Below, piece by piece: positions 23,079-48,680 of a stretch of DNA of 64,000 nt; the stretch's first letter is position 1; each line of letters opens with the position of its first letter. This DNA is from Comamonas avium (lineage in GTDB: Bacteria; Pseudomonadota; Gammaproteobacteria; Burkholderiales; Burkholderiaceae_C). The stretch spans positions 447,501 to 511,500 of the forward strand of contig NZ_JACSQK010000004.1 of NCBI RefSeq assembly GCF_014836675.1, read 5' to 3'. Under the pieces are notes generated by a model that saw only the letters and a list, made by a program, of their open reading frames with translations, was not told where the DNA came from and did not search any database. The translations under genes were made by a program, and so were the position numbers.

Positions 23079-23079
23079 A

Positions 23080-23230
23080 TACGTTCTCAGGGCGGGGTGA
23101 AATTCCCCACCGGCGGTAAGCAGCTTTAGCTGTAAGCCCGCGAGCGCTTGGATGGCTCTGCCATCCAAGGTCAGCAGATCTGGTGCAAATCCAGAGCCGA
23201 CGGTCACAGTCCGGATGAAAGAGAAACGTG
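23080..23230 (+). promoter_or_regulatory. FMN riboswitch (RFN element)
   Basis: All conserved RFN blocks are present in order: ACGTTCTCAGGGCGGGGTGAA, CCCCACCGGCGGTAA, AGCCCGCGAGCG, GGTCAGCAGATCTGGTG, CAAATCCAGAGCCGACGGT, CACAGTCCGGATGAAAGAGAA. The outer P1 stem is ACGTTCTC with GAGAAACGT. It binds FMN and should shut off the downstream lumazine synthase gene when flavin is plentiful. Confidence 0.97.
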
Positions 23231-23243
23231 AAGACCTGTTCTC

Positions 23244-46634: not shown

Positions 46635-48374
46635 TTAGAAAGACTCCCATTCGTCAGTCTGGTGGGCTGCAGGCTTTGAAGCGGCAACGAATGCGGGCGC
46701 AGCCACAGGCTTTGGCACCCTGGCCGCTTGCAGGGTGCGGGTGACTGGGGATGCGGGCAGTTTCACTGAGGCTGCGGTGGGAGGCAAAGCGGGCTCAACA
46801 CCCGCAGCTGCAGCAGAGGTCCATGCTGTCTGCCCCACCTTGAATACCGCCATGGCCTGAATCAGCCGCTGCGCCTGTTCACTCATGGCGTTTGCCGCTG
46901 CGCTGGACTCTTCGACCAAGGCCGCATTTTGCTGGGTCATCTGGTCCAGATTGCTCACGGCCTGATTCACCTGCACAAAACCATCACGCTGCTCATTGGT
47001 TGCCGCAGTGATTTCACCGATCAGATCAGTCACCCGGCGCACACTGGCCACAATCTCATGCATGCTGGCACCTGCTTGGCTGACCTGGGTGGAGCCAGCG
47101 TCCACATTGCTGACACTGGCTTCAATCAGGCCCTTGATTTCCTTGGCTGCTTCTGCACTGCGGCCAGCCAGACTGCGCACCTCGGCGGCCACCACCGCAA
47201 AACCGCGGCCTTGCTCACCGGCACGTGCCGCTTCAACGGCGGCGTTCAGTGCCAGGATGTTGGTCTGAAACGCAATGCCATCAATCACGCCAATGATGTC
47301 GCCTATCTTGCGGCTGGAGGTGTTGATCTGCTCCATGCTGAGCACCACCTGCTGCACCACCTGACCACCGCGCTCTGCTGCCTGCACAGCCGTTGCCGCC
47401 AGCTGATTGGCCTGGCGCGAGGTATCTGCCGACTGATTGACGGTGGCTGTCAGTTGCTCAATGCTGGCCGCTGTCTCTTCCAGATTGGCGGCTGTCTGCT
47501 CTGTGCGCGCCGACAGATCCTGGTTGCCGTTGGCAATTTCAGCAGCTGCCGTAGACACTTCATGCACACCACCACGAACGTTCAGCACCACATCCCGCAA
47601 GCGCTGTGCCATGGCATCCAGGGCCTGCATCAACTGACCAAACTCATCCTTGCGCTGACTGGCTGCGTGAATGGTCAGGTCGCCCCCACCGATGGCTTCC
47701 GTCATCTTCACCGCCTCGCGCAGCGGCACCGTAATGCTGATCACCAGCCAGCGTGCAAGCAACACGCCCAGCAACAGCAGCACTGCTGTGCTGAGCCAGC
47801 CCATCCAGATGCTGCTGCGGCGCGCGGCATCAGAGTTTTGCATCAGTGCACTGAGCTGCTGGCGCTGCGCACCAATGAAGTCTTCGATCTTGCTGCCGTA
47901 AATTTCGGACAGATTGGTGTACTCACCAAACGCATAGTTGCCCCGTGCGTTGTAGTCATCCAGATCCATGGTGTCCAGCGCCGTCTCGCGGCTGTTCTTC
48001 AAATCCTCAAAGGCTTTGAGTACGGATGCAAAGGACGCACGCTCCTGCTCGGACATCAGCGAGTTTTCCATCTCGGCCAACGCTGCCAAGGCAATGTCAT
48101 GCTGCCTTTTAAAGCGCGCTTCAAACTCGTTTTGAAGGCGGTTTTCATTCGTCGCCATCAGTGCTGTTCCAGCCTCAATGCTGCGCAGTATCTTGCCGCG
48201 CATGGTCTCGGCCAGCGCAATCTTGCGCTCAATACGCTGCACGTCTTCCCGGGAAGTTTCCAGCGTCTGCATCGTGCTTTGCTGCACCCAGAAGTTCGAC
48301 AAAGTCATGATGACCAGCAAACCCAAAATAGTAGTCCATAGCTTTGGAGCTACCCGAATGTTCGAAAAATTCAT
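46635..48374 (-). CDS. Transmembrane methyl-accepting chemotaxis protein
   Basis: A 579-residue chemoreceptor. TM1 at about 13-30, a periplasmic four-helix-bundle sensor (about 32-187), TM2 at about 188-212, HAMP, then the signalling domain with hairpin tip [21 protein letters not shown] and [17 protein letters not shown]. The linker near the end is Pro/Ala-rich and the last residues are DEWESF, matching the xWxxF pentapeptide that tethers CheR/CheB. Its ligand is unknown. The leader holds a riboswitch-like structure (48494-48614), so expression probably depends on a cyclic dinucleotide. Confidence 0.95.
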
Positions 48375-48464
48375 GATGGATATAAGACTTCACACAATTT
48401 GGCCATGCGCGCCCATCAGCAGTGGTTGCGCGCGTCAGAGGATGCCAAGATGCCTGCATGGCCT

Positions 48465-48475
48465 AAGCCACGGGC
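48465..48475 (-). promoter_or_regulatory. Anti-aptamer sequence in the chemoreceptor leader
   Basis: On the minus strand this reads GCCCGTGGCTT, an exact 11-base complement of AAGCCACGGGC in the aptamer core (48562-48572). It lies between the terminator and the start codon and could compete with aptamer folding in read-through transcripts. Confidence 0.5.
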
Positions 48476-48493: not shown

Positions 48494-48517
48494 CAGCAAA
48501 ACGTCTCCTCCAAGACG
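48494..48517 (-). terminator. Riboswitch-linked terminator in chemoreceptor leader
   Basis: On the minus strand, CGTCT-TGGAGG-AGACG is followed by TTTTGC. The 5' side touches the last base of the aptamer's P1 stem, and CTTGGAG in the hairpin can instead pair with CTCCAAG inside the aptamer (48543-48549), giving two exclusive folds. Confidence 0.65.
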
Positions 48518-48614
48518 CTTACAGGCAACCCGGCGACCATGACTTGGAGAACAAGCGTTAGGCCCGTGGCTTTGCGACGCTGGCTTTCGCGCAGGTGTGC
48601 TTCGGCATAAAGCC
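48517..48614 (-). promoter_or_regulatory. GEMM-I type cyclic dinucleotide riboswitch aptamer
   Basis: On the minus strand the leader contains the GEMM-I hallmarks in order: GCACACC, a short stem closed by a GAAA tetraloop, CGCAAAGCCACGGGCCTAA, a second hairpin, and GGTCGCCGGGTTGCC, enclosed by GCTTTA/TGTAAGC. GEMM-I RNAs sense cyclic di-GMP (some variants 3',3'-cGAMP) and often precede chemotaxis genes. Aligned by eye on the ACC, the base at the ligand-contacting G20 position appears to be A. It ends about 140 bases before the receptor start. Confidence 0.8.
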
Positions 48615-48680
48615 ATTATCCAGTAACTTTTATTTACAAATAATGGTTTACACCAATAACCTTGGTTGGCAACTTTCCAT

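Follow-up and report, generated by a model that had tools for sequence, protein, structure and literature searches.

A GEMM-I riboswitch with adenine in place of G20 in the leader of a Comamonas chemoreceptor gene

The window analysed here is a whole stretch of 64,000 nucleotides from Comamonas avium, and our subject is the 5′ leader of a methyl-accepting chemotaxis protein (MCP) gene on its minus strand. The product matches the Pfam families MCPsignal and HAMP, together with a 4HB_MCP_1 match that falls below its cut-off. The leader carries a c-di-GMP-I (GEMM-I) aptamer, of which the 3′ end lies 146 nt and the 5′ end 237 nt from the MCP start codon at 48374. Bases are numbered after Vc2, in a register derived from the Vc2 sequence and the core of the model. 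The features are as follows.

46635-48374, minus strand: gene for the MCP, 579 aa (open reading frame; Pfam MCPsignal 7.1e-53, HAMP 5.9e-15)
48465-48475, minus strand: putative anti-aptamer strand, a perfect 11-nt complement of aptamer bases 48572-48562 (AAGCCACGGGC) (complement search)
48499-48520, minus strand: terminator-like hairpin AAGCGTCT TGGAGG AGACGTTT (terminator scan; local fold −10.8 kcal/mol)
48521-48611, minus strand: GEMM-I (c-di-GMP-I, RF01051) aptamer, full length (cmscan 52.8 bits; model R1 71.5 bits)
48525, minus strand: equivalent of C92, kept (C in 150 of 150 aligned aptamers, alignments A2 and A3)
48573, minus strand: equivalent of A47, the intercalating base, kept (CGCAAAG core in the cmscan alignment)
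48579-48595, minus strand: first P2 pair, C26 (48595) to C41 (48579), a C-C mismatch ('v' marks in the cmscan alignment; script)
48601, minus strand: A at the position of Vc2 G20 (cmscan alignment, model position 11)
48615-48619, minus strand: ATAAT, a possible −10 element, with a conserved GTTAC before it (aligned in four of four syntenic leaders)

Scanned against the whole 64-kb window, RF01051 matches at 48611-48521 on the minus strand with 52.8 bits (E 1.7e-7), above the gathering cut-off of 35 bits and across the full model from 1 to 87. In a search of the organism's own genome the aptamer reaches an E value of 2.5e-9, and our own model R1, trained on 22 rows with the window aptamer among them, scores it at 71.5 bits. 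The alignments recover the GEMM-I core, namely GC(21-22), CGCAAAG with A47, C92 and a GNRA-capped P2, with G21, C22, A47 and C92 all retained. A first-pass annotation of this DNA had placed a GEMM-I core in the chemoreceptor leader, with a GAAA-capped stem, CGCAAAGCC and GGTCGCCGGGTTGCC; all of these are there as described, and the covariance search bears out the assignment. The only other match above gathering score in the window is an FMN riboswitch at 23079-23231 on the plus strand (114.9 bits).

The same annotation read an A where Vc2 has G20, a base that contacts one guanine of c-di-GMP, and this reading holds. Model position 11, a conserved and unpaired G that precedes the GC pair closing P2, corresponds to Vc2 G20 and is A in the window, and its placement is fixed by GC(22) and CGCAAAG on both sides, where the alignment carries '*' posterior marks. 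An alignment shift that would bring a G to position 20 was rejected, as the same anchors speak against it. Family membership stands because 15 of the 150 aligned aptamers, the window's included, lack G at this position and still score as family. The element is a real GEMM-I riboswitch with a real A20, in the 5′ leader of a chemoreceptor gene. It is very improbable that the A is an assembly or sequencing error over a true G: the exact aptamer is seen in the window genome only, but that genome is rated 100% complete with 0.18% contamination, A20 recurs elsewhere, and a wrecked copy of the switch in a congener (G012, discussed below) by eye reads A too.

A further change lies in P2, the first pair of which (Vc2 26-41) is C-C in the window, by script the sole consensus pair that is not standard, and by eye C-G in the G20 ortholog L006. 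The mismatch was not adopted as a hallmark of cGAMP switches: C-C at 26-41 also occurs in 3 G20 aptamers of 148 parsed, as well as in 5 A20 aptamers from several phyla. The pair parser reads some rows wrongly (inspection by eye shows errors in its 'CA' class), and no statistics were built on it. With that reservation, positions 24 and 43 covary in the family, reading A-A in 78 and C-T in 62 of the 148 parsed aptamers. A J1/2 shortened by one base relative to the G20 ortholog looks possible by eye but is not required by the MAFFT alignment, and was dropped.

The rest of the leader offers several candidate elements through which the aptamer could act. A promoter scan finds no full sigma-70 site at ATAAT; if ATAAT is nevertheless the −10 element, transcription may start inside the 5′ strand of the proposed P1. 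Directly 3′ of the aptamer, the hairpin at 48520-48499 has 9 pairs, 3 of them G-C, and a poor T tail, and its AAGC could pair with a GCTT 5′ of the aptamer to form this P1. We call the hairpin weak because the terminator scan finds 1 site where shuffles give a mean of 0.5. The terminator that the first-pass annotation saw overlapping the closing stem is borne out as a weak, terminator-like hairpin, the overlap being the AAGC shared with the 3′ strand of the possible P1. The P3 loop of the aptamer, CTCCAAG, is complementary to CTTGGAG within the same hairpin. Further downstream, the 11-nt complement is the longest found and is matched or beaten in 7 of 1,000 dinucleotide shuffles. When transcripts that end at 48462 or 48440 are folded without constraint, this strand is engaged; for the transcript to 48462 the unconstrained fold (−60.3 kcal/mol) lies about 9 kcal/mol below the aptamer-constrained one (−51.0), with no ligand energy included. 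In the same test, the longest downstream complements in L311, L002, L003 and L004 run to 6 to 8 nt.

Ligand binding by the window aptamer would act through these elements, the folding of the aptamer competing with the terminator hairpin or with the 11-nt downstream anti-aptamer and so setting chemoreceptor expression. Competition between P1 and the terminator would give an ON switch, whereas a terminator that forms once the aptamer has sequestered the P3 loop would give an OFF switch; because the elements predict opposite signs, we do not commit to either.

Three congeners carry a syntenic receptor, with identities over the first 270 residues of 54% (G012), 51% (G004) and 45% (G024), and of 35% or less beyond. 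The four syntenic leaders are alike in that the end of the preceding gene, its terminator hairpin, GTTAC and ATAAT are kept, and they differ in the state of the switch. G004 (L006/L311) has a full G20 aptamer before the receptor, which R1 scores at 64.9 bits; by eye, its leader shows no counterpart of the terminator hairpin or of the anti-aptamer, and no downstream complement there exceeds 7 nt. In G012 (L310) a P2-like hairpin remains, the CGCAAAG core is lost, and by eye the copy reads AGC where G004 reads GGC. At the syntenic loci of G012 and G024 (L312), R1 has no match at E 1. The genus can do without the switch. The next relatives of the receptor, at 34-35% identity, follow G20 aptamers (L003, L004 and L007), so that G is the older base at some depth; to judge from these sequences, A20 may have arisen before the window lineage split from G012.

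These losses bear on the main rival to the reading that we favour, namely that the switch is in early decay, its pocket mutations being drift and the leader no longer usefully responsive to any ligand. With the gene order and GTTAC..ATAAT unchanged, two of the three other congeners have lost the switch (a wrecked core in G012, no aptamer found in G024), and the A at position 20 in the G012 remnant suggests that A20 may precede loss. Matches to RF01051 above cut-off occur in only 7 of the 53 genomes of the genus, and the window aptamer combines a changed ligand contact with the C-C pair. The remainder of the aptamer argues the other way. A2 has 40 columns in which at least 85% of its 90 rows agree. 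The window aptamer breaks 3 of them (A20, C41 and a P3 change that leaves a G-C pair), within a range of 0 to 8 over these rows; L002, L003, L004, L006 and L007 from the genus break 4 each and L008 breaks 8, L005 lying outside the listed rows. Because only these 3 columns are broken, and this despite divergence of the receptor to 51% identity with that of G004, the aptamer is not generally decayed. All its consensus pairs other than C-C are standard, and a CCTAA..ATGG stretch, which we take to resemble a GAAA-tetraloop receptor, looks better preserved by eye than its counterpart in the G20 ortholog. We consider decay rather unlikely, although it is the alternative that we take most seriously.

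Our preferred reading, to which we give a probability of about 0.48, is a GEMM-I switch with a pocket loosened by G20A and the C-C first P2 pair, most likely giving a lower-affinity response to c-di-GMP. The RNA would still respond to c-di-GMP, the dinucleotide of this kind for which the genome, with 39 GGDEF and 13 EAL matches, visibly has the means of synthesis, and its affinity would be reduced to match raised c-di-GMP levels in the cell. In favour of this reading is that the aptamer breaks 3 of the 40 conserved columns against 4 in the G20 ortholog L006; against it are the weak terminator, the lack of a counterpart to both terminator and anti-aptamer in that ortholog and, should ATAAT be the −10 element, a possible transcription start within the P1 5′ strand.

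Published values frame what such a pocket could do. Mutation of G20 lowers c-di-GMP binding by Vc2 30,000-fold, and mutation of the same position in Vc1 does not fully abolish binding (PMC4744006); in Cd1 the equivalent base is described as biasing selectivity rather than filtering strictly, and a protonated adenine is what lets cGAMP riboswitches bind c-di-GMP (PMC9262584). As wild-type Vc2 has a value of 0.011 nM for c-di-GMP (PMC9049102), a 30,000-fold loss gives a few hundred nM by arithmetic. Against our preferred reading, the G20A/C92U double mutant of Vc2 stands at 4900 nM (PMC9049102), and the pgcA switch of Geobacter, which has A20, prefers cGAMP by about 1200-fold (PMC6456294); because A20 goes with so strong a cGAMP preference in Geobacter, c-di-GMP affinity could be too low to matter. 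The aptamer may also have dual specificity, binding 3′,3′-cGAMP as well or better in vitro.

That A20 in Geobacter goes with cGAMP, as the first-pass annotation stated, is in print: in the Gmet_0970 switch, A20G moves selectivity from cGAMP to c-di-GMP (PMC6456294). The window could accordingly be read as a true 3′,3′-cGAMP riboswitch of the GEMM-Ib kind, in a cell that makes or meets cGAMP and tunes its receptor by it. In Geobacter the published determinant is A20 combined with an unchanged C92 (PMC6456294), a G20A mutant of GEMM-I has been crystallised with cGAMP (PDB 4YB1, PMC6274999), and point changes in lower P2, where C-C lies here, are reported to affect selectivity between c-di-GMP and cGAMP (PMC9262584). 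We nonetheless find this reading improbable, on grounds of the genome's synthases, its second aptamer and the distribution of A20.

Hypr enzymes are marked by a Ser replacing Asp nine residues after the Asn of FKxxND (Asn339/Ser348 of GacA; PMC6456294, PMC8835794). At this position the script reads Asp in 32 of the 39 GGDEF loci, including L050 (SSDEF) and L066 (GADEF) with altered motifs, and Asn in one (L070), leaving six unparsed. By eye, the unparsed loci include L062 with Asp (AGDEI), L073 and L075 with Asp and a broken motif, L077, unclear and with a broken motif, and L072 with Asn and GGDEF kept. No Hypr Ser with an intact GGDEF motif occurs among the 39 matches, and the SMODS and cGAS-family (NF041078) models give 0 matches each, so that within the Hypr GGDEF, SMODS and cGAS models searched the genome has no cognate cGAMP synthase of the Hypr or DncV/cGAS-like kind. 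Its other GEMM-I aptamer (L002), one of two in the genome, is G20. The idea that this receptor responds to another or a wider range of cyclic dinucleotides therefore goes unsupported by the genome: no synthase match was found, A20 is scattered over phyla, and the congener switches are G20, wrecked or absent.

Some loci met in these searches are worth recording. L002 lies upstream of a CheW-like and then an MCP-like ORF (named by eye), an arrangement similar to that at L005 in G012. L070 (G000:C12:346754-347209) and L072 (G000:C15:324497-324997) combine an intact GGEEF/GGDEF motif with Asn at the base-selecting Asp position, and L074 (G000:C1:52737-53198) is a degenerate GGDEF domain that by eye has Ser at the Hypr position and SPTQF in place of GGDEF. 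In the congener G012, a cGAS-family match (L308, G012:C303:17497-18333) of 80.8 bits, below the cut-off of 150 and with one stop inside, suggests that CBASS-like synthases may occur in the genus. It is conceivable, at low odds, that G20A and the lower-P2 change have shifted the switch to 3′,3′-cGAMP or to both dinucleotides through a cGAMP source unrecognised in the lineage, such as L070 or L072, or phage-defence signalling.

The distribution of A20 was followed through the family and beyond. Of the 399 family genomes sampled, 116 have a match to RF01051, and our 150 aligned aptamers (90 in A2, 60 in A3) comprise 142 of the 150 best-scoring family places and 8 genus places, a best-scoring selection that may underrepresent rare bases. 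Every one of the 150 has C at position 92, and position 20 is G in 135, C in 11 and A in 4 (the window, L078, L137 and L156). The exact A20 pattern occurs at 5 places in 4 of the 399 genomes; the reversed pattern, as control, matches in 3 genomes, so that the pattern alone is not clean, and R1 confirms the four places other than the window as GEMM-I. The family A20 aptamers stand before different genes: one encodes an MCP, another a MASE1/CHASE/PAS/HisKA protein, a third an Lcl_C-domain protein, and a further ORF matches nothing in Pfam.

Over GTDB species genomes the pattern matches at least 119 stretches, of which 80 are listed; by their titles we take 15 of these to be of Desulfobacterota type, 34 of Bacillota type and 31 others, including a Thiobacillus, a Hydrogenophaga and Shewanella fodinae. 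In the 80 listed loci R1 detects 100 aptamers (81 A20, 15 G, 4 C), with A20 in 79 of the 80, an enrichment that the choice of loci builds in. L267, the Hydrogenophaga MAG aptamer, has the same sequence as the G391 aptamer (L342), and the two genomes are probably one. A20 is thus sporadic, scattered over many phyla and upstream of unrelated genes, which, with its 4 in 399 family genomes by exact pattern, argues against a dedicated cGAMP switch.

Four A20 genomes, which do not amount to a survey, were checked for Hypr enzymes; three (the window genome, Pelosinus fermentans and G265) show no intact Hypr GGDEF and one does. The positive control, the Geobacter relative Geomobilimonas luticola, has 20 GGDEF matches in 19 loci (two in one locus), with Ser in 2 (GGDEY, GGDDF), Asp in 15, Thr in 1 and 1 without the motif. 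Pelosinus fermentans, where an A20 aptamer precedes a GGDEF ORF, has Asp in 17 of 20 by script, and no Hypr Ser was found among these or, by eye, in the remaining three (L379, Asp with GGDTF; L407 and L408, without a GGDEF motif). G265, of the same family as the window genome and with two A20 aptamers, has Asp in 23 of 26 and no Hypr Ser found; L366 and L367 are identical fragments that begin past the position, and L369 matches the profile end only. Because A20 recurs across phyla, including three genomes in which no Hypr mark was found, cGAMP signalling should not be deduced from this base alone.

Set beside known systems, the window switch shares with GEMM-I of the Vc2 kind P2 with its GAAA loop, P3, the CGCAAAG core, A47, C92, G21-C46 and a site upstream of a motility or signalling gene, and differs in A for G at position 20 and in the C-C first P2 pair. 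With Geobacter GEMM-Ib (pilM Gmet_0970, Gs1761/pgcA) it shares A20 with C92 kept and, with pilM, possible competition between P1 and a terminator, here the poorly T-tailed hairpin that overlaps AAGC; unlike these, it stands before a chemoreceptor gene, as a sporadic single copy, in a genome where no Hypr synthase was found. The switch of G004 has the same gene order, receptor and GTTAC..ATAAT, and differs in G20, the C-G first P2 pair and the sequence 3′ of the aptamer. If the window aptamer binds cGAMP, this would point to an unknown synthase in the lineage; if it binds only c-di-GMP, it would be a natural low-affinity version, comparable with the G20 cheW switch of the same genome. By title and abstract, we found no paper on this locus (c-di-GMP riboswitch with chemotaxis or Betaproteobacteria; GEMM-I A20), which is not proof of absence.

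The 11 C20 aptamers among the 150 aligned (L032, L081, L082, L088, L099, L101, L105, L106, L107, L133 and L167, from five genera) form a separate observation. All of them are followed, at a distance of 12-43 nt, by the start of a Peptidase_S8 (subtilase) ORF (in the case of L106 the second of the frames listed), and a subtilase motif within 2.6 kb downstream occurs with 17 of 135 G20 and none of 4 A20 aptamers; among the 150 aligned, C20 is confined to subtilase-linked switches. A title and abstract search found no paper on subtilases with c-di-GMP-I, which does not prove absence in print. In Cd1, placing A or C at the equivalent position made no great difference (PMC9262584), so that C20 need not mean a new ligand. 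These aptamers make up a coherent natural group within GEMM-I, tied to one gene and possibly with a distinct pocket.
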